Part shown: piece by piece, positions 9,898-46,243 of the stretch
Numbering within the stretch: position 1 is the stretch's first letter
Layout of the letters: the number at the start of each line of letters is the position of its first letter
Position numbers and translations under genes: made by a program
Notes under the pieces: model-generated
What the model saw: only the letters and a program-made list of their open reading frames with translations
The model's database searches: none
Told to the model about the DNA's origin: nothing
NCBI GenBank assembly: GCA_028871795.1
Contig: JAGWMG010000003.1
Span: 248,001-312,000, forward strand
DNA from: Alphaproteobacteria bacterium
Lineage (GTDB): Bacteria > Pseudomonadota > Alphaproteobacteria > Micropepsales > Micropepsaceae
Direction: 5' to 3'
DNA length: 64,000 nucleotides

Positions 9898-10215
9898 TTA
9901 TGTTCGCTTGCGCCAATTGAGCGGCGCCGCGATGCCGATGATGCCGGCCAGATCCATGCGCCTGCCGCGCCGGATCATAACGTAGTAGCTGGCGCTGCCG
10001 AATTCGTCGCGCAGATAGCCCAACAGGCCATCATAGGGATTGCCAATATAAACAACCTCACCGTCGCGTCGGTTATTCCGGTACGGATAGACGTAGATTA
10101 GAAGTTTCGGATCGGGGTCGTCCATTAGACGCATGAACAGCTCCTCCACTCTGTTGCTGCCACCGAATATCGACGGAACGGAGCGGCGCCTTCTTCGGCC
10201 AGAGCGCTTTTTCAT
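9898..10215 (-). CDS. Island-encoded small basic protein, unknown function
   Basis: A 105-residue protein with a very basic start (MKKRSGRRRRRSVPS), then a folded-looking part (PKLLIYVYPYRNN, VVYIGNPYDGLLGYLRDEFGSASYYVMI). No family recognised. Its ATG at 10215 overlaps the stop of the His/Thr-rich frame upstream by four bases. It is the tRNA-proximal gene of the island and probably part of a small module with the AlpA-like gene. Confidence 0.5.
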   Translation of the reverse strand: MKKRSGRRRRRSVPSIFGGSNRVEELFMRLMDDPDPKLLIYVYPYRNNRRDGEVVYIGNPYDGLLGYLRDEFGSASYYVMIRRGRRMDLAGIIGIAAPLNWRKRT

Positions 10216-10445
10216 GGTGTGTTGCCCGGTGTGTGGCCGGTGTGTGGCCGGTGTGTGCCATGATGTGTGGCGCGTGTGTGGTCCGGTGTGTGGCGTGGTG
10301 TGTTCCGTCGCGCAGCAATGGCGCGTCCATCACGTCTGCCTTGCCGGAAGGCCGCCAGCAGTCCTCTCCATGTCCCCCTCTGCCACGGCTTTTCATGAGC
10401 TGCCGTCCCGGCCGATACCGAGCGATGTAAGCGGTGGCGCTTCAA
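10212..10445 (-). CDS. His/Thr/Pro-repeat frame across an 11 bp tandem repeat, doubtful gene
   Basis: A 77-residue frame whose C-terminus (HTPDHTRATHHGTHRPHTGHTP) is encoded by the tandem repeat at 10213-10310. It ends in an ATGA overlap with the next gene but overlaps the AlpA-like gene by 53 bases. A different frame starting at 10396 begins in an ATGA overlap with the AlpA-like stop and also reads through the repeat. One original gene may have run from 10396 to 10212 and been split by a copy-number change. Confidence 0.35.
   Translation of the reverse strand: MKRHRLHRSVSAGTAAHEKPWQRGTWRGLLAAFRQGRRDGRAIAARRNTPRHTPDHTRATHHGTHRPHTGHTPGNTP
10213..10310. repeat. 11 bp tandem repeat (CACACACCGGC on the minus strand)
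   Basis: Three near-perfect consecutive units of CACACACCGGC, followed by several degenerate units up to about 10310. The unit length is not a multiple of three, so each unit gained or lost shifts the frame. The whole tract stays open in more than one frame, giving His/Thr-rich peptides. Confidence 0.7.
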
Positions 10446-12583: not shown

Positions 12584-12823
12584 GCCGACCGCTCCGCCAG
12601 AGGTCGTCGGAAGACGTAGGAGGTCGAAGGAGGGTATGGCGCAACAGTCGGCGAGACGGGATCGGGAAAACCAGGGTGAATCAGTGTGCCGTGAGCACGC
12701 TATCGTGATGTGGACCCGGTCCGCGAACTCCCATTCGGGCCCGCAGCACCATCGCTGCATCCAAAGGCCGGACAGATGGCAGCATCCGACTACGTGCAAA
12801 CCCTTTTACCGCTTGCGTCTAAA
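12584..12823 (+). ncRNA. Candidate guide (bridge/seek) RNA region of the IS1111-type element
   Basis: 240 non-coding bases between the transposase stop and the right subterminal repeat. IS1111-group elements encode their target-specifying RNA in this position. I see GC-rich segments able to pair but did not derive a fold, so this is placement by family knowledge only. Confidence 0.4.
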
Positions 12824-34152: not shown

Positions 34153-35196
34153 TCAACAGCACTTGATGGGCGCCGCACCGCCCTCGACACTGGGGCTAGG
34201 TGCGCAATCGAACAATCCATAATGAACAGACCGATCGCCGATGACCTGGAAATGCGGCGCGTAGCGGGTTTGTGCAACCATGTCCGCGGTGTTGCCGCAC
34301 ACGGCCATCGCCTTGCCAGCCTCGAATCGATGATGGTCATCCAGATCGAATGCGTGGGGCGTTGCCCGAATGGTGCCTCGATAGATCGCGACTTGGCCGT
34401 AATCCTCGCAGCGGTCCTCCAAGTCCAACTTGAATGCGCGGATTGTGACCGAATGAAAGCCGACAAACCCTACCCGGTTCTCGATGTCGGGATTGTTGAT
34501 CGCCACGCGGCGGCGCTCGATGGTCCGGCTGTCGCAGCAGCCAACTTCCGCCATGAGGCGGCGGAAATCTTCCCAATAAAGCGCTCCACCGAGACATTCG
34601 CCGAGAAGGACCGGATCGGTTGCCAATTCGCTGGGGATGCGCCGGTCCGCAAACACATCGGAAAAATAGAGTTCTCCCCCGGGTCTCAGGACCCGAAATA
34701 TCTCGCGAAACACACTTTTTTTGTCAGGAGAAAGATTGAGCACGCAATTCGATACAACGACGTCCACACTGTCATCGGCAATACGTGTCGTGTTCAGATC
34801 TTCAATGTAACCCTGGCGGAATTCCACATTGGCAAAACCGAATTTCTTGGCGTGGTAGTCGCGATGCTTGCGGGCGACAGCAAGCTGCGCCTCAGTCATA
34901 TCGACGCCAATTACGCTTCCCTCGGGTCCCACCAACTGGGAAAGGACATAGCAATCGCGTCCTGCGCCGCAGCCTAGATCGAGAACACGCGCACCCTCAA
35001 GCATGTGTGGGATGGGAGAACCACATCCGTAGAATCGCGCCTTCACTTCTTCATGAACGTTGCCGAGCGCTTCGGCAATATGCGGCGCCGGCGCGCTTCC
35101 GATACAGCACGCCGACGTTTGAAGATCGGCGGAGGATTTCAAAATTTCCCCATAGTACTGCTGAACGGCTTCCAGAGACCGGCGATGTTCTGTCAT
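34153..35196 (-). CDS. arsM: Arsenite S-adenosylmethionine methyltransferase
   Basis: A 347-residue class I methyltransferase. SAM motif VLDLGCGAGRDCYVLSQLVG at 71-90, As(III)-binding cysteines in TSACC (30, 31), GCGSP (58), SNCVLN and GECLGGALYW, and the C-terminal segment CEDYGQVAIYRGTI are characteristic of bacterial ArsM. It methylates As(III) and supplies the methylated precursor for arsenosugars or volatilisation. ATG 35196 follows GGAAG; a GTG at 35220 is an alternative. It lies 30 bases after the radical SAM gene. Confidence 0.9.
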   Translation of the reverse strand: MTEHRRSLEAVQQYYGEILKSSADLQTSACCIGSAPAPHIAEALGNVHEEVKARFYGCGSPIPHMLEGARVLDLGCGAGRDCYVLSQLVGPEGSVIGVDMTEAQLAVARKHRDYHAKKFGFANVEFRQGYIEDLNTTRIADDSVDVVVSNCVLNLSPDKKSVFREIFRVLRPGGELYFSDVFADRRIPSELATDPVLLGECLGGALYWEDFRRLMAEVGCCDSRTIERRRVAINNPDIENRVGFVGFHSVTIRAFKLDLEDRCEDYGQVAIYRGTIRATPHAFDLDDHHRFEAGKAMAVCGNTADMVAQTRYAPHFQVIGDRSVHYGLFDCAPSPSVEGGAAPIKCC

Positions 35197-35226
35197 GGTA
35201 TCGATCTTCCAATTTTTCACGTCAGA

Positions 35227-36186
35227 CTATTGACTGCACGATGCGCCGCCTAAGACGCAGAACTTGGCACAATGGGGATGGTTCAGACGTACCAACCGGT
35301 TTGCCTCGGCGAGCGTGCTGCCCAACTCGAATTGGTCGTCATACGGAAGTAGCGTGCAGGATACAACGACCGGGTGATCGCCACCTTTTCGCTTGATCAC
35401 CATCCGCGATGTCGCGCACATCACATCCGAAGGTTTCTTTCCAAGAATCTCCCAGCAGTGCTCGGTGATTTCCGGCACGTCGACTGTAGCGTTCATTTCC
35501 GGAAACAACACGAAGCGATGAGGGTCCCACGCGTCTACTTCAATTTGCTCCTTGGAAAAGAGTGCCGCAAATCCGTTTCGCAGCGCTTGTTCGTCATTGG
35601 AATCGAGCATGCGCGCCGCCACTGCAATGTTGAAGCCGTTGTCGGAGAGCCATTTCAGCCCTTCGATCGCCGGCGCCCACGTGCGAGCTCCGCGCACACG
35701 TTCATGGGTCTCTGCGCCAAAGTGGTCGAGTGAGACGCGTAACACGAGTTGCCGGGGATAATTGGCGCGCAGCTCAAGCAATGCGTTTTTATGGTGTTGC
35801 ATTGGCAGCATGGCGTTCGTCAACACAAGCACACGGTAGCCTGAGTTGAGCGCGTCCATGAGCATGGCGATGATGTTGGGATTCATGAATGGCTCGCCGC
35901 CGGTGAATCCAATCTCCTCAATACCCTTGTGGTCACGTTCGGCTTCAGTGATGAATTTTCGGACGTCGCCGGAAGTCAAATACGACAGTTGGTCATTGCG
36001 GGAGCTTGATTCGATATAACATCCTTGGCACGCCAAGTTGCAGAGCGTACCGGTGTTGAACCACAAGATCTTGAGGCCTTGTGGAGCGACGACGGCCCGC
36101 GGCTCGCCTTTCGCAGTCCAATAGGGGTCTTTGAACTTGCCACAGCCGCCCACATTCCGATTGGCAATTCTAGAACATACATCCAT
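35227..36186 (-). CDS. Radical SAM enzyme linked to ArsM
   Basis: About 319 residues. NTGTLCNLACQGCYIES carries the CX3CX2C cluster motif (Cys49, 53, 56), followed by EIGFTGGEPFMNPN for SAM binding. The C-terminus has more cysteines (CTLLPYD, HPHCAKFCVLGGASC), suggesting an auxiliary Fe-S cluster. It is not the classical ArsS (which has a DUF3641 half). Position as first gene of the ArsM operon suggests it adds the adenosyl-derived moiety or modifies a partner; this is inference. A GTG at 36207 is an alternative start. Confidence 0.8.
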   Translation of the reverse strand: MDVCSRIANRNVGGCGKFKDPYWTAKGEPRAVVAPQGLKILWFNTGTLCNLACQGCYIESSSRNDQLSYLTSGDVRKFITEAERDHKGIEEIGFTGGEPFMNPNIIAMLMDALNSGYRVLVLTNAMLPMQHHKNALLELRANYPRQLVLRVSLDHFGAETHERVRGARTWAPAIEGLKWLSDNGFNIAVAARMLDSNDEQALRNGFAALFSKEQIEVDAWDPHRFVLFPEMNATVDVPEITEHCWEILGKKPSDVMCATSRMVIKRKGGDHPVVVSCTLLPYDDQFELGSTLAEANRLVRLNHPHCAKFCVLGGASCSQ

Positions 36187-36494
36187 CACAAATGCGCCAT
36201 CCCACACAAAGCATTGGCCGTATTGGTCCTGTCTCGACGCAACCGAACATTATGCTGCTACGTTGTTATTCGCTGGACCAAGGTGGAAAGTTTCATCTTC
36301 CGGCAAAATTTCTGTGTCAGGACACAATAGCAGCATCGGAAGCTGCGGCGCGCAACCGTTATTGGCAACATCAAGGCCAATGTGCAGGCATGTGGCTGCG
36401 CCATACTGGATCAATTCCAAATTACAGGACAGAATTGGGTGCGTGGGATCACAGCCCATGATAAGGGCAAATTTATCTGCATGAGGTCGTGTCC

Positions 36495-38559: not shown

Positions 38560-39045
38560 TCAGGAGGAAAGTCTTCGCCGGATCAGGTGATCGAGCGACA
38601 ATGCACCCGGCCCGCGGAAAATGATGAAGGCAAGCGCCGTCGCCCAGCCAAGATGGGTTTCCCAGGCGTCCGGATAGACGAACATCTCGATCACTGTTGT
38701 CATGCCCAGAAGCGCGGCCGCGCTGAGTCGTGAAGCGAGTCCGAGAACCAGCAACACCGGGAAGAAAGTCTCGGAGTAAGCAGCGATGTGCGCGGCGATA
38801 GGCGCCGGAATGACCGGTATCTTGTATTCGTACTGGAATAGATAGTAGGTGCTGAGCTTGAGCGTCAGAAAACCGTCCACCTTTGTGCGTCCCGAGAGAA
38901 AAAACGTCACAGCTATGAAAATGCGCGCCGGCGTCGCCAGCAGAGTGTCGTAGGAGACGCGCTCCAGCCAACCAATGACAGTATGTCCTGTCGCAGCGAG
39001 TCCCGACATGGGCTTTGCGTCTCCAACCGATTGCTCGACTGTCAT
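38560..39045 (-). CDS. DoxX-family membrane protein of the bufferin operon
   Basis: A 161-residue protein with four hydrophobic helices in DoxX layout: LLATPARIFIAVTFFLSGRTKVDGFLTLK, AYSETFFPVLLVLGLASRLSAAALLGMTTVIEMFVYPDAWETHLGW, then ALAFIIFRGPGALSLDHL. DoxX proteins close many BufABC operons and are thought to handle electrons for the redox step. ATG 39045 overlaps the BufC stop (ATGA). Confidence 0.8.
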   Translation of the reverse strand: MTVEQSVGDAKPMSGLAATGHTVIGWLERVSYDTLLATPARIFIAVTFFLSGRTKVDGFLTLKLSTYYLFQYEYKIPVIPAPIAAHIAAYSETFFPVLLVLGLASRLSAAALLGMTTVIEMFVYPDAWETHLGWATALAFIIFRGPGALSLDHLIRRRLSS

Positions 39046-39824
39046 AGAGGTCGATCCTTTCCAGAGGTGCCGACGAAGGTTCCTGTGTCGGCCAGTGTCG
39101 CAAAATGTGTTTGAAAATCGAAGTCCGGATCGGCCCATTCGGCTTCCCGCCGGGCTTCGGCCCGGGAGGCGCCGCCATCGAATGCCAGCAACATCGCGTA
39201 GGCGCCAAGGTGCAGGCGGCGAACTTCGACCTCGCGTGCAGGGCGGATAACCAGAAGATATTCGCGCAGCTGCGGCAGGGTCACATTGTCGAAAGACGCT
39301 TCATTACGATTGAGTTCCCAGATGCGGGAGACTTGGAATGGCGAGGTCATCAAACGCGCGGACGGATGAAGGGGCAGCCGGACGTCATCGCCGCCCACTA
39401 TGGCCGCGGCGCGGCCGAGAGGACTTGCGTCTCTGGCATGGTAAGCCTCCAGGTAAGCGAACTCCAGCCTAGCCACATCTGCGAGATATGGAATGCCGGC
39501 GGTGGGCGGAAGCGCTGCGAGGAAACCGGGAAACTCAGCGCCATAGGTGAGAAGCGTGGCAATCTTCGGCGACGTTTTGGCAATGTATTCGACTGCCGCA
39601 AAGCGAAAGAACTCCTCGCCGACGAGACGCTCAACGGCCGGGAATGTATCGCGCAGCGCATCGACGAGGCGTGCGTAGACGTTGTTCTTGTATATTGTAA
39701 AGCGCCTATCGGCTCGCGATTCTCCAGGCAGGAGCAGCTTGCGCAATGCCTCCGGAACATTTGGGCCGGGCGTCGCCGTCAGATAACCGGCCATCGCGGT
39801 CTGAAACTCACGCAACGTCGACAT
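39042..39824 (-). CDS. bufC: DUF2063 partner of the MNIO enzyme (BufC)
   Basis: A 260-residue protein of the DUF2063/HvfC family: LREFQTAMAGYL at the start, FTIYKNNVYARLVDALRDTFPAVERLVGEEFF in the first domain, and YLADVARLEFAYLEAYHARDA in the second. DUF2063 proteins recognise the precursor leader and present it to the DUF692 oxidase. The gene overlaps the oxidase gene by 17 bases and DoxX by four, so the three are made in fixed proportion. Confidence 0.85.
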   Translation of the reverse strand: MSTLREFQTAMAGYLTATPGPNVPEALRKLLLPGESRADRRFTIYKNNVYARLVDALRDTFPAVERLVGEEFFRFAAVEYIAKTSPKIATLLTYGAEFPGFLAALPPTAGIPYLADVARLEFAYLEAYHARDASPLGRAAAIVGGDDVRLPLHPSARLMTSPFQVSRIWELNRNEASFDNVTLPQLREYLLVIRPAREVEVRRLHLGAYAMLLAFDGGASRAEARREAEWADPDFDFQTHFATLADTGTFVGTSGKDRPL

Positions 39825-40689
39825 AGGCGTCTCCTGCTTGCGTAGCCAGTTCGTTGGCGCGGTTGGCTTCTTCCAGCAAGACGGCTAGTTCCGGCACATC
39901 CGTGTCCCATTCGATCAAAGTGGGCCTCGCACCGATGCGAGCGATCGTTTCCTGGTAGAGATTCCACACGTCCGGGCTCACGCGGCTACCGTGATCGTCA
40001 ATCCGGACCTCAAATTCGTCTTCCTTGATGACAGAATGCCCGGCAAGATGGATTTCGTGAACAAGATTGCCGGGAATTCGCGTCAGCCAGATGCAAGGAT
40101 CAAACCCATGATTGCAGGCGCTGACATAGACATTGTTGATGTCGATCAGTAGGCCGCAACCCGACCGGTGAGCTGCCTGCGCCATGAATTCGGGTTCTGG
40201 AATTTCCGACTGCCGGAATGAAATGTAGGTTGACGGGTTCTCCACGAGAATTGTGCGCCCCAAAGTATTTTGCATTTCGTCGATGTGTTCGCAAACTAGC
40301 TTCAGCGACTCGTTTGTATATGGAATCGGCAGAAGATCGTGCAGCGAAATGCCGTCAAACCGCGACCACGCGATATGTTCCGACACCAGCGCGGGCTCGT
40401 AGCGTTCGATGAGCGAACGCCAACGCGAGAGGTGGCCGCGATCGAGCGGTTCCGCTCCAGCCAACGACATGCCGACACCATGGAATGAAAGTGGATAGGT
40501 GCCAGCAATGACTTCCAGATACGCATGCGGCGGCCCGCCCGCCCCCATATAGTTTTCCGGATGCACTTCCACGAAGGCAAGGGCAGGCTTTGTTCTCAAT
40601 AGATCGCGATAATGCGCCGGTTTAACCCCGATTCCCGCGCGTGCGGGAACCGGGGCGATGCCATCACAGCTGGGGGACCGTGAACGCAT
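39808..40689 (-). CDS. bufB: MNIO (DUF692) multinuclear iron oxidase, BufB
   Basis: A 293-residue TIM-barrel enzyme. Metal-ligand candidates are visible: VHPENYMG, SFHGVGMS, SEHIAWS, LVENPSTY, LIDINNVYVSA, HEIHLAGH, IDDHG and IEWDTD. These enzymes oxidise cysteines of a ribosomal peptide (in bufferins to thiooxazole-type groups) so that it binds copper. Located between its peptide BufA1 and partner BufC. ATG 40689 is the only good start; the first 20 codons lie within a strong hairpin (40626-40655). Confidence 0.9.
   Translation of the reverse strand: MRSRSPSCDGIAPVPARAGIGVKPAHYRDLLRTKPALAFVEVHPENYMGAGGPPHAYLEVIAGTYPLSFHGVGMSLAGAEPLDRGHLSRWRSLIERYEPALVSEHIAWSRFDGISLHDLLPIPYTNESLKLVCEHIDEMQNTLGRTILVENPSTYISFRQSEIPEPEFMAQAAHRSGCGLLIDINNVYVSACNHGFDPCIWLTRIPGNLVHEIHLAGHSVIKEDEFEVRIDDHGSRVSPDVWNLYQETIARIGARPTLIEWDTDVPELAVLLEEANRANELATQAGDAYVDVA
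40626..40655 (-). promoter_or_regulatory. Strong hairpin in the bufB translation-initiation region
   Basis: Arms CCCCGGTTCCCGC and GCGGGAATCGGGG (minus strand) pair over 13 positions with one G-U, closing a four-base loop, from codon 11 of bufB onward. No U-tract follows, so it is not a classical terminator. It could pause ribosomes or protect upstream bufA1 mRNA and so lower enzyme relative to peptide; it could also be a by-product of coding Pro-Ala-Arg-Ala-Gly. Confidence 0.4.
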
Positions 40690-40701
40690 CTATTGGATCC
40701 G

Positions 40702-41022
40702 TCAAACCGGCAGATGCGAATTCGAATCTTGTAGAGAACCATGCCCGAAAGGTGTCTTGATTTTCTCGCAGGTGCCCTTCGGTACGAGCTTCCAGGAATT
40801 CGACTGGTAATCGATCTTGGAGGTGCCGGCACAGGTCGTTCCCGGGCCAGCCTTGCAGTCGTTGTGGGCCGCCAGAGCGACCCCGTAACACTTCTCCATC
40901 GACGCCATTTGGTCCGGCGATATCTGGAGAGGAGCCGCGGCTGCCGTCGAGAGGTATCCGACCGTCGCCACAACGGCCCCCGCGGCCGCGAGGGAGGAAC
41001 GAATGGCCAAGCGTATGTTCAT
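40702..41022 (-). CDS. bufA1: Bufferin precursor peptide (DUF2282), BufA1
   Basis: A 106-residue periplasmic RiPP precursor. A signal peptide (about 1-30, ending STAAAA) is followed by [28 protein letters not shown] ... [12 protein letters not shown]. The four core cysteines at 45, 56, 64 and 85 match the DUF2282 pattern, in which the MNIO enzyme converts central cysteines for copper binding. ATG 41022 follows AGGAG. It stands second in an operon after the NPCAA-repeat lipoprotein and directly before bufB. Confidence 0.9.
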
Positions 41023-41070
41023 AATAAGCTCCTGTTTTGGGGGTGAACGAGGGTGTAATGTCTTGCCTCG

Positions 41071-41304
41071 CTAGTGAGGCGAGGCCGCGCAGGGATTCTG
41101 GGCCGCACAGGGGTTCTTTTTCGGCGCACATGGATTCTGTGCCGCACAAGGGTTTTTGGCCGCACACGGATTGGCCGTCGCCGCCGCAGGGGCACACGGG
41201 CTGTGCCCATGAACCATATTGTTGATCGACTGGCATGAAGCCAGTGCCGTACCTAGCGTAATCACCGCGCCCAGTGTAAGCGCGGATCGTGTGAACGACT
41301 TCAT
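41071..41304 (-). CDS. Cys-rich NPCAA-repeat lipoprotein heading the bufferin operon
   Basis: A 77-residue protein: signal peptide with lipobox LASC (lipid-Cys24), then SPCAP and repeated NPCAA(K/Q) units with cysteines at 37, 47, 53, 59, 66 and 72, ending in His. ATG 41304 follows GAGGAG. It lies downstream of a GTAACC-N16-CGAA promoter and 49 bases before bufA1. The regular Asn-Pro-Cys units resemble a metal-binding array or a multi-core substrate for the MNIO enzyme. A paralogue lies at 44241-44543 (both begin MKSF..S.LTLG). Function not established. Confidence 0.8.
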   Translation of the reverse strand: MKSFTRSALTLGAVITLGTALASCQSINNMVHGHSPCAPAAATANPCAAKNPCAAQNPCAPKKNPCAAQNPCAASPH

Positions 41305-41343: not shown

Positions 41344-41369
41344 TTCGGGTGCACAGTCGGAAAGGTTAC
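41344..41369 (-). promoter_or_regulatory. SigF-type promoter of the bufferin operon
   Basis: On the minus strand GTAACC (41364-41369), exactly 16 nt, then CGAA (41344-41347), about 40 bases before the lipoprotein start. This is the motif recalled for Caulobacter SigF. Two more copies with the same spacing occur at 41541 and 44139. Confidence 0.75.
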
Positions 41370-41540
41370 GTTCTGCCGCCAACCGCGATGGCCTCAGCGG
41401 CGCGAATTCCAAATGACGCGGGCAGGGCCCGATCACTCAAACGAGATCGCGGCCTTTAAGCGATGGTGTGGCATTTACACCCCGCAAAATTCCTCCGAAT
41501 GGAGTGAATCAAATAGAACCGGAACTGTTCCGACTCGCGC

Positions 41541-41566
41541 GTAACCTTTTCGACTCCGTCTTCGCA
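41541..41566 (+). promoter_or_regulatory. SigF-type promoter upstream of sigF (CGCA variant)
   Basis: GTAACC at 41541-41546, 16 nt, then CGCA at 41563-41566 (one mismatch to CGAA). It faces sigF-nrsF at 41931, with a 365 bp leader in between, and suggests autoregulation. Confidence 0.55.
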
Positions 41567-41930: not shown

Positions 41931-42515
41931 TTGAGCGCTGGCGATACCGATGCACGCCTTAGCACGCTGATGAAAGCCGCGCAGGCCGGCGATGGCGCCG
42001 CATACGCGCAACTACTGAAGCTTGCAGTGCCAATCATAACACGCGTTGTCAGCTCGCAACATCCCTACGGTCTGGAGATCGATGATATCGTCCAAGATGT
42101 CCTGCTATCTCTCCATTACGTCCGCCACACCTACGACCCGGGGCGGCGGTTTATTCCGTGGCTTGCAACGATCGCCCATCACCGGTTGATAGATGCCCAG
42201 CGGCGGCGCATCCGAATAACCCAGAATGAAGACGCCGTTCCCGAACTCCTTGAAACCTTTTCGGACGATCAAACGAATTGGGAAGTGGCAGGCCAGGGTG
42301 ACCCCGAACTGCTCAAACGGGCGATCGCTGATCTTCCTATTGGACAAAGACACGCCGTCGAGCTGTTGAAACTGCAGGAACTTTCATTGAAGGAGGCTTC
42401 AGCCGTCAGCGGCATATCTGTCGCAGCATTGAAGGTAGCAGCCCACCGGGGAATGAAGGCGCTCCGTGCCCGTCTCACCGGCGAAGCCCCCTCGACGAAA
42501 GAAAAAGCGGAATGA
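41931..42515 (+). CDS. sigF: ECF sigma factor, SigF type
   Basis: A 194-residue sigma factor. Region 2: LEIDDIVQDVLLSLHYVRHTYDPGRRFIPWLATIAHHRLIDAQRRR. Region 4: LPIGQRHAVELLKLQELSLKEASAVSGISVAALKVAAHRGMKALRARL. It starts at TTG 41931 behind GAGGGAG; no ATG is better placed. The gene overlaps the anti-sigma gene by four bases. In Caulobacter the homologous pair answers heavy metals and controls bufferin-type operons, matching the neighbours here. Confidence 0.85.
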   Translation: MSAGDTDARLSTLMKAAQAGDGAAYAQLLKLAVPIITRVVSSQHPYGLEIDDIVQDVLLSLHYVRHTYDPGRRFIPWLATIAHHRLIDAQRRRIRITQNEDAVPELLETFSDDQTNWEVAGQGDPELLKRAIADLPIGQRHAVELLKLQELSLKEASAVSGISVAALKVAAHRGMKALRARLTGEAPSTKEKAE

Positions 42516-43201
42516 GTAAGATACGTACCGACGAGTTGATCCTGCAATTGGCCTCCGAACCGGCCCCGGTGCGGCACTTGCGTTCGCCCATGACCCGTAC
42601 CGCCATATGGCTGGCGATTTCGCTGCCTTGGGTATTCGCGATCGTTTTCGTCATGGGCTTGCGCCCGGACCTCCGTGCACAGATGTCCAATGCACACTGG
42701 TTGATCGAGCAAGGCGCCGCACTCGCGACCGCCCTTATGGCCGCCATGGCCGCATTCTGCGCAGGCGTTCCAGGCCGGCCGCGCTGGGAGCACCTTCTTC
42801 CGCTTCTGCCACTGGCGGTTTGGCTCGGCGCTCTTGGCCAAGACTGCCTTCAGGGATGGATTTCTTATGGAAGTGCGGGCCTTACGCTTCACCCGGACTG
42901 GCAATGCCTGCCGGGTATTATCATGGTTGGAATGGGACCTGCCGTCGCGATGGCGGCAATGATCCTTCGCGGTGCGCCTCTGGCGCCGATGACGACGACC
43001 GCACTTGGCGCTTTGGCTGCAGGCGGGCTCGCCGAAGTTGGCTTGCGCCTGTTTCACCAGGTGGATGCCAGTCTGATGGTGCTCGTGTGGCAGGCCGGAA
43101 CGGTTGTCGGACTTACACTCATTGCGGGGTTGTTCGGGCGGCGTGTTCTGCGGTGGCGTCATGCCGACGTGCGCAAGCACGCTTTTGACGCCAAAAATTA
43201 G
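42512..43201 (+). CDS. nrsF: NrsF-type anti-sigma factor (DUF1109)
   Basis: A 229-residue inner-membrane protein with six hydrophobic segments and a short cytoplasmic N-terminus that should hold SigF. Cysteines lie at 83, 112 and 132. The Cys in LHPDWQCLPG matches one of the two metal-sensing cysteines known for Caulobacter NrsF; the second, in a conserved L-H-C-x-E-D motif, appears replaced (LFHQVD), leaving a His. Starts in an ATGA overlap with sigF. Confidence 0.85.
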   Translation: MSKIRTDELILQLASEPAPVRHLRSPMTRTAIWLAISLPWVFAIVFVMGLRPDLRAQMSNAHWLIEQGAALATALMAAMAAFCAGVPGRPRWEHLLPLLPLAVWLGALGQDCLQGWISYGSAGLTLHPDWQCLPGIIMVGMGPAVAMAAMILRGAPLAPMTTTALGALAAGGLAEVGLRLFHQVDASLMVLVWQAGTVVGLTLIAGLFGRRVLRWRHADVRKHAFDAKN

Positions 43202-43213
43202 GAGAAAACAGCG

Positions 43214-43723
43214 ATGGTGAAACCCCGTCTTATGGTGCCAGGACTCGACCTTCCGCTCGTCGGCGGCGGGCGGTTCTCACTCGATATGGAGCAGCCTGCC
43301 GCATTCACGATGATCGTGGTCTACCGCGGATTACACTGCCCGCTCTGCAAGACTTACTTGCGCGACCTTAACGGCAAAGCGGAGGACTTCGAGTCCGTTG
43401 GCGTCACCATCGTCGCGGCAACATCGGATACGGCAGATCGCGCCGAAAAGGCTAAAACCGACTGGAATCTCGACAAGCTACGCATGGCGTACGGCATGCC
43501 GATCGAACTGGGTCGAAAATGGGGCCTATTCGTTTCGCGTGGCATCTCCGATAAAGAGCCTGCGGAGTTTCTGGAGCCTGGCCTATTTCTCGTCAGGCCG
43601 GACAAGACGTTATATGCCGCCTCAGTCCAAACGATGCCGTTTGCACGGCCAAGTTTCGCGGAAGTGCTTGGCGCCATCCACTTTGTAACCAAAAACAATT
43701 ACCCCGCGCGCGGTGAGGCCTAA
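43214..43723 (+). CDS. Peroxiredoxin-like protein (AhpC/TSA)
   Basis: A 169-residue thioredoxin-fold peroxidase. VVYRGLHCPLCKTYLRDL holds a Cys42-x-x-Cys45 site; VTIVAATSDTADRAEKAKTDW and GLFLVRPDKTLYAASVQTMPFARP complete the fold. AGGAG lies 9 bases before ATG 43214. It follows nrsF by 12 bases, so it is in the sigF operon. It probably reduces peroxides or thiols during metal stress; no signal peptide is seen. Confidence 0.8.
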   Translation: MVKPRLMVPGLDLPLVGGGRFSLDMEQPAAFTMIVVYRGLHCPLCKTYLRDLNGKAEDFESVGVTIVAATSDTADRAEKAKTDWNLDKLRMAYGMPIELGRKWGLFVSRGISDKEPAEFLEPGLFLVRPDKTLYAASVQTMPFARPSFAEVLGAIHFVTKNNYPARGEA

Positions 43724-43728
43724 AGCAC

Positions 43729-44001
43729 ATGGGGCAAAACATAAAACATGAGCATGACATTGCTTCTGGTGTGACGGACAAATCCGTTATTACCTGCCCC
43801 AGTTGCGGGTTTTCGATGACGGAGACGATGCCGCAGGACGCCTGCCAATTCTTTTATGACTGCAAGGGCTGTGGCGCTGTGCTGCGGCCGAAAGCCGGAG
43901 ACTGCTGCGTCTTCTGCTCTTATGGCTCAGTCCCGTGTCCACCGATGCAACAGCAATTGCACGTTCCGGGCGATGCCCCTGCCTGTTGCCGAGACGACTG
44001 A
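43729..44001 (+). CDS. GDCCVxC-domain protein
   Basis: A 90-residue cysteine-rich protein: TCPSCGFSMTETMP, FFYDCKGCGAVLRPKAGDCCVFCSYGSVPCPP, with two zinc-ribbon-like CxxC pairs and the GDCCVFCSYG motif that names this family of (seleno)proteins, often found near mercury or metal genes. It starts five bases after the peroxiredoxin gene. Likely cytoplasmic metal or thiol chemistry; the reaction is unknown. Confidence 0.8.
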   Translation: MGQNIKHEHDIASGVTDKSVITCPSCGFSMTETMPQDACQFFYDCKGCGAVLRPKAGDCCVFCSYGSVPCPPMQQQLHVPGDAPACCRDD

Positions 44002-44138: not shown

Positions 44139-44164
44139 GTAACCTTTGGACTCGCCCCCGCGAA
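44139..44164 (+). promoter_or_regulatory. SigF-type promoter of the NPCAAK-repeat gene
   Basis: GTAACC at 44139-44144, exactly 16 nt, CGAA at 44161-44164. It lies 77 bases before the start of the repeat protein and matches the bufferin-operon site in both hexamer and spacing. Confidence 0.75.
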
Positions 44165-44638: not shown

Positions 44639-45073
44639 ATGGCACGCTTTGGCAATGGCATATTCGCCGGCCTTGTCGCCACGATCGTTCTGTCCGCTTT
44701 TATGGTGATGAAGCAAATGATGGGGATGATGCCTGAGCTCGACGTCATCAACATGCTGACCACGATGTCGGGCGCATCCTCACCAGTTGTCGGGTGGCTG
44801 ATGCATTTCATGATTGGAAGCATCGTCTGGGGCGGCCTGTTCGCGCTAACCCAAGGTCATATCCCCGACGGCAACATCATTCTTCGCGACGCCATTTTCG
44901 GCGCTGGGGCATGGCTTCTCATGATGGTGATGGTGATGCCGTTGGCAGGGGCCGGACTGTTCGGCCTGCACTTCGGAATGGCTGCGCCTGTGATGACGTT
45001 CCTCCTGCATGAGGTTTTTGGCTGCACGTTGGGCGCCGTCTATGGGTTGCGTATGCAGCCAAAGGCTGCCTGA
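44639..45073 (+). CDS. DUF6789-like four-helix membrane protein
   Basis: A 144-residue protein with four hydrophobic segments (GIFAGLVATIVLSAFMVM, PVVGWLMHFMIGSIVWGGLFAL, AWLLMMVMVMPLAGAGLFGLHF, VMTFLLHEVFGCTLGAVYGL), unusually rich in Met and with His in the membrane (MHFM, LHFGM, LLHEV). Met/His content could suit copper handling. It follows the NPCAAK-repeat gene by about 95 bases and precedes the thioredoxin gene. Function unknown. Confidence 0.65.
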   Translation: MARFGNGIFAGLVATIVLSAFMVMKQMMGMMPELDVINMLTTMSGASSPVVGWLMHFMIGSIVWGGLFALTQGHIPDGNIILRDAIFGAGAWLLMMVMVMPLAGAGLFGLHFGMAAPVMTFLLHEVFGCTLGAVYGLRMQPKAA

Positions 45074-45109
45074 CCGAAGCAGTACCCCCCTATGAAAGGT
45101 ATCCCCGGC

Positions 45110-45505
45110 ATGACACGCCTTCCCAGATTGCTTCTTGCGGTTGCTCTGGGCGGCAGCCTGTTGATCGGCCCCGCCGCAGCGGCAAACCACTACACGTACA
45201 GCGCCTCGAAGTTCGGCGAGGCGCAGGCTACAGGAAAGCCGATTCTTGTCGACATTTCGGCATCCTGGTGTCCGGTCTGTAAGGCACAGAACTCTGTCAT
45301 CGAGCGTGAGCTGGCAAAGCCGGAATTCGCACGCTACGTCGTGTTCAGCGTGGATTTTGACAGCCAGAAGGATGTTGTTCGCGCCTTCAACGCGCCGATG
45401 CAGAGCACCTTGATTGTCTTTAAGGGCAAGAACGAAAAAACGAGATTGGTCGGTGTCACCGATCCAAACATCATCGATGCCATGATGCGTCGAGCGGCCG
45501 ATTGA
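45110..45505 (+). CDS. Periplasmic thioredoxin-like protein
   Basis: A 131-residue protein: signal peptide (ending PAAAA), then ILVDISASWCPVCKAQNSVIERELAKPEF with the Cys-Pro-Val-Cys site, and PMQSTLIVFKGKN. It resembles the C-terminal (gamma) domain of DsbD. With the CcdA gene twelve bases downstream it forms a split DsbD: CcdA passes electrons across the membrane, and this protein delivers them in the periplasm. ATG 45110 is preferred to ATG 45092 because it follows AAAGG. Confidence 0.8.
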   Translation: MTRLPRLLLAVALGGSLLIGPAAAANHYTYSASKFGEAQATGKPILVDISASWCPVCKAQNSVIERELAKPEFARYVVFSVDFDSQKDVVRAFNAPMQSTLIVFKGKNEKTRLVGVTDPNIIDAMMRRAAD

Positions 45506-45517
45506 GGGACATCGTCC

Positions 45518-46243
45518 GTGCTTCCCGTTGGTTCAGCGACCGTTGCTTTCGTTGCCGGCATTTTGTCGGTCCTGTCGCCATGTGTCTTGCCAATTCTGCC
45601 GATAGCGCTGGGAGGCGCTGTTGCAGCTCATCGGTTTGGCCCCATAGCGCTCTCCGCAGGCCTGGCCGTCTCGTTTACAGCCATAGGGCTTTTCGTTGCC
45701 ACGCTCGGCTTCTCCGTCGGCCTTGGCAGCGGCGCCTTCCAAATGGTTGGGGCGGTTCTGCTGGTGGTTATGGGAATCATCCTGATGGTACCGCGATTAC
45801 AGGTGGAGTTCGCCACTGTAGCGGGGCCTTTGGGAAATTGGGCCGAACAGCGTTTTGGAGGGTTCTCCACTGCCGGCCTATCGGGGCAATTTGGCCTTGG
45901 CCTGCTTTTCGGCGCCGTCTGGAGCCCCTGTGCGGGGCCTACGCTTGGTGCGGCGGCGCTTATGGCAGCGAACGGACATAACCTCATCCAAGTCACATTC
46001 ATCATGCTTGCCTTCGGTATCGGGGCGGCGGTTCCGCTTCTCGCTCTCGGAACCATATCGCGCGTGAGCCTTATGCGCTGGCGGGGCAAGATCGCCGGTT
46101 CGAGCTACGGCGCAAAGGCGTTTCTCGGCGCAATTCTGGTTCTCTTTGGAGTTTTGATCCTGAGCGGTCTAAATCAGACCATAGAGGCCTACCTCGTCTC
46201 TCATTCACCCGATTGGCTGCTGCAGCTCACAACCCGATATTAG
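45518..46243 (+). CDS. CcdA/DsbD-type transmembrane thiol electron transporter
   Basis: A 241-residue membrane protein with six to seven hydrophobic segments. LSVLSPCVLPILPIALGG and GAVWSPCAGPTLGAA carry the two conserved Pro-Cys sites of CcdA, which shuttle electrons from cytoplasmic thioredoxin to the periplasm. It starts at GTG 45518. It closes the operon that begins with the NPCAAK-repeat protein; keeping that protein's cysteines reduced is a natural role. Confidence 0.85.
   Translation: MLPVGSATVAFVAGILSVLSPCVLPILPIALGGAVAAHRFGPIALSAGLAVSFTAIGLFVATLGFSVGLGSGAFQMVGAVLLVVMGIILMVPRLQVEFATVAGPLGNWAEQRFGGFSTAGLSGQFGLGLLFGAVWSPCAGPTLGAAALMAANGHNLIQVTFIMLAFGIGAAVPLLALGTISRVSLMRWRGKIAGSSYGAKAFLGAILVLFGVLILSGLNQTIEAYLVSHSPDWLLQLTTRY

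Follow-up and report, generated by a model that had tools for sequence, protein, structure and literature searches.

An NPC-array lipoprotein at the head of a sigmaF-type bufferin operon of Micropepsaceae, a possible membrane-fixed thiol array

The window, i.e. the whole 64,000-nucleotide stretch of Micropepsaceae DNA that was analysed, carries on its minus strand a short gene for a lipoprotein with an array of Asn-Pro-Cys (NPC) units, followed by the genes of a bufferin operon, and on the opposite strand a divergent island of ECF sigma, NrsF, redoxin, GDCCVxC, a second NPC-array protein (NPC2), DUF6789, thioredoxin and DsbD/CcdA-type genes (Table 1). The genome to which the window belongs yielded one MNIO gene. 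An earlier note on this DNA had described a lipid-anchored peptide as first gene of a BufA1-BufB-BufC-DoxX operon, and both parts of this description were borne out: the reading frame is real and has a lipobox, and the same gene order was found in four operons of three genomes, namely in the window, at locus L103 (same genome as L043) and twice in genome G355 (L100 and L101).

Table 1. Genes and sequence features around the NPC-array lipoprotein gene, in window coordinates
Feature	Position	Strand	Evidence or remarks
DoxX	38560..39138	-	start codon uncertain, overlaps BufC
BufC, DUF2063 partner protein	39042..39824	-	74.9 bits; HvfC model far below cut-off
BufB, MNIO bufferin maturase	39808..40689	-	NF050167 MNIO_BufB, 375.9 bits, cut-off 310
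BufA1, DUF2282 bufferin precursor	40702..41022	-	91.6 bits
GC-rich hairpin over lipoprotein stop codon, before BufA1	41065..41085	-	RNA folding
NPC-array lipoprotein, 77 aa	41071..41304	-	signal peptide, lipobox LASC, NMVHG, SPC + 5 NPC units, C-terminal PH
SigmaF-type promoter GTAACC-N16-CGAA, lipoprotein-bufferin operon	41344..41369	-	pattern search
SigmaF-like promoter GTAACC-N16-CGCA, ECF operon	41541..41566	+	one mismatch
ECF-type sigma factor, Sigma70 regions 2 and 4	41931..42515	+	SigF type by adjacency to NrsF
NrsF anti-sigma factor	42512..43201	+	82.2 bits, cut-off 26.8
AhpC/TSA-type redoxin	43214..43723	+	SelL-related model below cut-off
GDCCVxC domain protein	43729..44001	+	104.8 bits, cut-off 40
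SigmaF-type promoter GTAACC-N16-CGAA, NPC2 gene	44139..44164	+	pattern search
Second NPC-array protein (NPC2), 100 aa	44241..44543	+	signal peptide, 6 His, 6 NPC units, without lipobox
DUF6789 membrane protein	44639..45073	+	domain match
Exported thioredoxin-like protein, CPVC	45092..45505	+	PF00085, 38.8 bits
DsbD/CcdA-type membrane protein	45518..46243	+	PF02683, 39.1 bits

Translation of the lipoprotein gene from the ATG at 41304 to the stop codon ending at 41071 gives MKSFTRSALTLGAVITLGTALASC followed directly by QSINNMVHGHSPCAPAAATANPCAAKNPCAAQNPCAPKKNPCAAQNPCAASPH, which by eye consists of a basic N terminus, a hydrophobic stretch, LASC with Cys24, NMVHG, the array and the PH end. The open reading frame listed here opens at a GTG at 41436, and because the sigmaF-type promoter sits inside the GTG frame, the ATG is the likely start. 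Cysteines are located at residues 24 (lipid), 37, 47, 53, 59, 66 and 72, so that those of the array follow each other at distances of 10, 6, 6, 7 and 6. Where the earlier note saw six evenly spaced Asn-Pro-Cys units, the repeat of six cysteine units stands, but one of them is SPC and the evenness is only rough. In the five NPCA units the residues are fixed and the codons differ (Asn AAT or AAC; Pro CCG, CCT, CCA, CCC and CCC), a pattern that points to selection at the protein level and not to a recently arisen DNA repeat. Moreover, the array is kept in the lipoprotein orthologues, which together with the codon variation is beyond chance. The lipoboxes of the four orthologues read, by eye, LASC, LASC, LAGC and LAAC; NMxHG is present in all four and the C-terminal PH in three of them, and the number of units per lipoprotein ranges from 4 to 8. 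AlphaFold2 predicted no fold (mean pLDDT 44.1, from a shallow alignment of 8 rows), comparison with solved structures gave no sequence match, and no Pfam or NCBIfam family covers the array of either NPC protein of the window.

NPC2, which the earlier note does not contain, is a paralogue of the lipoprotein (BLASTP, 45% identity, E 4e-14) with a plain signal peptide and a His-rich sequence. The DNA word for NPCA(A) occurs 18 times in the genome of the window, eight times inside the two NPC genes. NPC2 resembles the Asr acid-shock protein (NF033636) as an exported repetitive small protein, but the match is one of composition, and assignment to this family was rejected at 17.8 bits against a cut-off of 50. 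In the surrounding island, the NCBIfam NrsF model scored the NrsF product at 19.5, far under its cut-off of 300. An ECF sigma gene beside NrsF was also found in other genomes of the family, and the thioredoxin-like and DsbD/CcdA-type genes recur at other NPC loci. At locus L109 (12635-12876, plus strand) the sigmaF promoter is retained and the slot of NPC2 is taken by a short ORF without NPC units, which may be a decayed NPC2 copy.

A stem precedes BufA1 in 4/4 of the lipoprotein-headed operons; it is short in L100 and most pronounced in the other three (window, L103, L101). The window hairpin is a possible attenuation or processing element, and RNA folding of the whole operon-head region was not unusual (z-score -0.86). 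At L103 the hairpin lies at about 12650-12666 (plus strand) between lipoprotein and BufA1 and has a T run after it, so that more lipoprotein than BufABC may be produced. A scan for intrinsic terminators gave no excess (11 found, 9.1 expected). Two further observations were made elsewhere in the window. Genes for a methyltransferase (PF13847) and a radical-SAM protein (PF04055) lie at 34153-36207 (minus strand), some 2.4 kb away from the bufferin operon at its DoxX end; by eye they resemble genes of arsenic methylation or Cys-rich modification. A degenerate 11-base tandem repeat (GGTGTGTGGCC) with 7.6 copies occupies 10213-10307.

The promoter sequence GTAACC-N16-CGAA, located upstream of the lipoprotein gene and of NPC2, is the sigmaF-binding sequence of Caulobacter crescentus (PMC3511200). 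With a spacer of 14 to 18, it occurs twice in the 64-kb window, both times with N16, whereas shuffled sequences gave a mean of 0.31 and reached two in 3 of 100 cases. Among other NPC genes, those at L035, L043/L103 (both copies), L066/L102, L100 and L104 have the same box upstream, and the one at L101 has it with one mismatch. It was not found at the NPC loci L058 and L063, and within the family it also stands before bufferin operons that lack an NPC gene (e.g. L107, L109, L112, L114, L118, L119). Thus, the box ties the array to the bufferin regulon in this setting and does not indicate a function of its own. According to PMC3511200, sigmaF of Caulobacter crescentus governs two DUF2282-DUF692-DUF2063 units in response to dichromate and cadmium, and DoxX is the last gene of one of them. 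The window is like this SigmaF/NrsF regulon in its promoters, its DUF2282-DUF692-DUF2063-DoxX operon and its sigF-nrsF pair; the published regulon table, in the passage covered, has no NPC-array protein, to which the window adds two, and the window island further adds redoxin, GDCCVxC, thioredoxin and DsbD/CcdA-type genes. The predicted sigmaF control of both NPC genes in this organism is thus well supported by sequence.

Inside the family, 96 genomes were surveyed, among which 6 have NPC genes, 23 have MNIO genes and 5 of the 6 NPC bearers have both. MNIO was therefore present in 5/6 NPC genomes and in 18/90 others (Fisher p 0.003), a value that is descriptive only, since relatedness is ignored and one clade amounts to one history. 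In the BufB tree, six BufB of five NPC-bearing genomes formed a single clade (support 100/98), and the remaining 19 rows all came from genomes without an NPC match; the tree took 25 of the 27 MNIO matches of the family, leaving out L105 (frame not selected) and L126 (fragment), neither of which is near an NPC gene. A close BufB without an NPC head was found at L114 (G356), and genome G366, whose assembly is 98% complete, has NPC2 in its sigmaF island and gave no match for MNIO, though the contig ends close by.

For the class survey, a two-sequence array profile was used on 318 genomes, 124 of which have MNIO. It gave 10 hits, of which 8 are real arrays, a lower bound as the profile scored only part of the first candidates; the G316 hit (a Pro/Arg-rich frame) and the G117 hit (no frame with three units) were dropped. 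MNIO is adjacent to 2 of the 8, both of the same genus as the window, elsewhere in the genome for 2, and unmatched for 4. A scan of named genomes, which is not a census, gave 49 loci that passed two array-derived peptide patterns and tblastn (330 stretches matched), in records titled Proteobacteria, Nitrospirae, Rokubacteriota and cyanobacteria. The available flank contains MNIO at 3 of these 49 loci (L043, L058, L063), and at 2 of the 25 loci that extend over at least 18 kb. When the whole genomes of 48 of the 49 bearers were searched (L076 was left out), MNIO was found in 14, two family members (L043 and L066) included, and 34 had no match, many of these records being MAGs of unstated completeness, so that some absences may be assembly gaps. 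The MNIO share among NPC bearers is not above the class baseline, hence MNIO seems dispensable for the array in most of them. The earlier note had called for a survey of linkage between NPCAA repeats and DUF692 (MNIO) genes; such linkage exists inside the family, within one BufB clade, but it is not consistent outside. A tblastn search of a plasmid collection gave no NPC-array match, with a low-complexity filter that could mask repeats.

The arrays beyond the family are frequently parts of larger exported proteins. A SoxA-TsdA-type cytochrome c domain shares one reading frame with the array at 15 of the 49 loci, and a cytochrome P460-like domain at 12 (reading frames and tblastn in both cases). 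PF21342 was matched in all three fusions of the former type that were scanned (L061, L051, L058); the P460 name derives from PF16694 in L041 of the class sample (33.9 bits, cut-off 27), the others being assigned by tblastn similarity to L041 or L028, and in L056, the one further such fusion scanned, Pfam matched nothing at E 0.01. Three cyanobacterial loci (L048, L077, L087) have the array joined to thioredoxin, and one locus has it joined to a YHS domain (NF041384, 160.5 bits, cut-off 70). At most remaining loci the array is found in a small exported protein without fusion partner, and some of these proteins show a lipobox by eye (L074, L082). In Rokubacteriota, the protein of L044 (3855-4487, plus strand) combines an exported domain without Pfam match with an NPCAAK array at its C terminus.

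Neighbouring genes of the 49 loci include Sulf_transp YeeE/YedE at 10, an FGE-sulfatase-like gene at 9, a familyless exported protein at 7 and DUF302 at 6, compared with 0 each at 20 control loci, which are contig starts from the same genome set, several of them short (267,620 bases in 20 controls vs 726,710 in 49 loci). A recurrent gene set, in varying combinations, is shared by L049, L054, L056, L058, L061, L063, L071 and L072: an NPC cytochrome (SoxA-TsdA or P460-like), a small NPC protein, an exported Cys protein ending in SCPLN.TPDY, DUF302, YeeE/YedE and an FGE-like gene. No family was found for this set, and a literature search for the module found no paper with three of its five terms. 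The exported Cys protein near YeeE was considered as a proven cupredoxin and rejected, having no Pfam family and no solved relative. At L049, L054 and L061 the NPC cytochrome and YeeE occur with no MNIO nearby, whereas at L058 and L063 bufABC-DoxX accompanies the NPC-cytochrome/YeeE-type module, so that MNIO appears to have been added to it. Antoine et al. (PMC12452194) describe fusions of Buf1 domains with cytochrome c and with FGE; by this parallel, NPC arrays would occupy the slot of a metal-binding bufferin domain.

Bufferins and captophorins (Buf1 DUF2282, Buf2, Buf_EGKCG) are like the NPC lipoprotein in being small, exported and Cys-rich, in a bufferin operon with a sigmaF-type promoter; EGKCG bufferins share one Cys per repeat unit with it, and Buf2 has known lipoprotein forms. 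The lipoprotein likewise combines a signal sequence and lipobox (by eye) with six array cysteines, as expected of an MNIO precursor with Sec signal and cysteines. It differs in that no DUF2282, Buf2 or EGKCG signature was found by Pfam, NCBIfam and a look for EGKCG in the sequence, in being one gene removed from MNIO, and in belonging to a group with so many bearers without MNIO match. The NPC proteins of L079 and L045 were rejected as true BufA2, at 22.2 and 16.9 bits against a cut-off of 60. Bacterial copper storage proteins and metallothioneins also place many thiols in one small protein; the NPC lipoprotein differs from them in being exported and lipid-anchored, with a flexible NPC repeat and no match in solved structures. 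The words NPCAAK and PCAAKNPC did not occur in the literature searched, most subscription journals and supplements lying outside the search, and for looser NPCAA-like words the papers among the matches listed look unrelated. The regulon is known; what appears new and apparently undescribed is a modular exported thiol-array family of a new repeat type and its sigmaF link.

We consider it about an even bet that the lipoprotein is a lipid-anchored, periplasm-facing, flexible thiol array, induced by sigmaF together with bufferin and buffering a soft metal beside BufA1, metal binding being what we infer here. This is close to the copper array working with BufA1 that the earlier note offered as one of its two possibilities. 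SigmaF, released from NrsF by metal stress as known in Caulobacter and presumed for this organism, would transcribe lipoprotein and bufferin together. The lipoprotein would then be exported, lipidated and sorted to the outer membrane via its Gln at +2, a residue which directs lipoproteins to the outer membrane. There, the flexible array would present six thiols together with Met-x-His-Gly and the C-terminal His as soft-metal, Cu(I)-type ligands, so that BufBC-activated BufA1 would buffer in solution and the NPC array at the membrane, and the thioredoxin and DsbD/CcdA-type protein of the island would perhaps keep the array cysteines reduced. This reading is favoured by the sigmaF-type promoter before both window copies and at other NPC loci, given the dichromate and cadmium response of the Caulobacter regulon (PMC3511200), as well as by the His-rich NPC2 and the conserved NMxHG and PH of the lipoproteins. 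It also agrees with the thioredoxin and DsbD/CcdA-type genes of the island, the three cyanobacterial thioredoxin fusions, the 34/48 NPC genomes without MNIO match, the lack of an AlphaFold2 fold and the parallel to the Buf1 fusions. Against the metal array count the sulfur-related neighbours found elsewhere (YeeE/YedE, SoxA-type cytochrome), which indicate sulfur as much as copper, and the sigF deletion of Caulobacter, which gave no metal-sensitivity phenotype (PMC3511200), though that regulon lists no NPC gene. The linkage to one BufB clade counts against it too, in that it also fits an MNIO substrate.

In this alternative, raised by the earlier note, the lipoprotein would be a second, multi-core substrate of BufBC, whose NPC cysteines would become thiooxazoles (captophorin-like) in a lipid-anchored product that chelates copper. 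The lipoprotein does head four bufferin operons, and both the single BufB clade and the enrichment of MNIO among NPC genomes of the family speak for it, as do precursors in tandem and bufferins that are lipoproteins (about 16% of Buf2), both reported in PMC12452194. In Gadgil et al. (PMC13097082), 5-thiooxazoles are formed on repeated 5-mers, which FonBC modifies; yet FonBC was reported to be intolerant to Pro at all sites of the 5-mer and NPC has Pro before Cys. Since FonB belongs to a different substrate group, this intolerance only weakens the substrate reading, and NPCAA could be among the 5-mer motifs in a figure or supplement of that paper. The landscape survey sampled genes preceding MNIO genes; in the window BufA1 stands between the lipoprotein and BufB, and a gene before bufA1 could thus have been missed. 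On the other side are the bearers without MNIO match, G366 with its NPC2 (near a contig end) and L114 with its close BufB and no NPC head. As a general claim the substrate role of the repeat was not supported, with MNIO near 3/49 loci; locally it is not favoured, and for the lipoprotein we rate it unlikely.

Another explanation is that sulfur or electrons are stored and handed on by the array, as a sulfane-sulfur/persulfide carrier or thiol redox buffer to which copper is incidental. The SoxA-TsdA-type fusions, the YeeE/YedE neighbours (10/49 loci vs 0/20 controls), the thioredoxin fusions and the redoxin, GDCCVxC, thioredoxin and DsbD/CcdA-type genes of the window island would fit. However, no SoxA-type or YeeE gene is among the island genes scanned, the local partner is bufferin, and the His-rich NPC2 favours metal; we give this explanation roughly one chance in five, the same low standing as the substrate role. 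Still less probable, and in our judgement improbable, is that a loosely constrained repeat with a structural function or none is simply retained by the sigmaF island. Its patchy occurrence (6/96 family genomes), the variable unit number of the lipoprotein and the promoter kept before an NPC-less short ORF at L109 would suit such hitchhiking, but the residues are fixed while codons vary, promoter, lipobox and array are conserved jointly in divergent genomes, and the same array is reused in unrelated exported proteins.

Coming back to the metal array, we tentatively propose, with slightly less than even confidence, a broader reading in which NPCAAK arrays would be undescribed, portable exported thiol scaffolds, which occur by themselves, with a lipid anchor, or in one protein with a SoxA/TsdA-type cytochrome c, P460-like, thioredoxin or YHS domain. 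With YeeE-type, FGE-like and DUF302 genes they would form a periplasmic metal/sulfur module, and the sigmaF-bufferin system would have recruited them as a second buffer bound to the membrane. Should the array bind metal, the stress response of the bufferin system would be two-layered, with a soluble chelator made by MNIO and an unmodified, membrane-anchored thiol array under one sigma factor. If the array is modified instead, NPC, with Pro adjoining Cys, would be a new MNIO substrate motif. Either way, exported cytochromes, thioredoxins and lipoproteins of several phyla share a recurrent motif for which the members scanned gave no dedicated Pfam or NCBIfam family.
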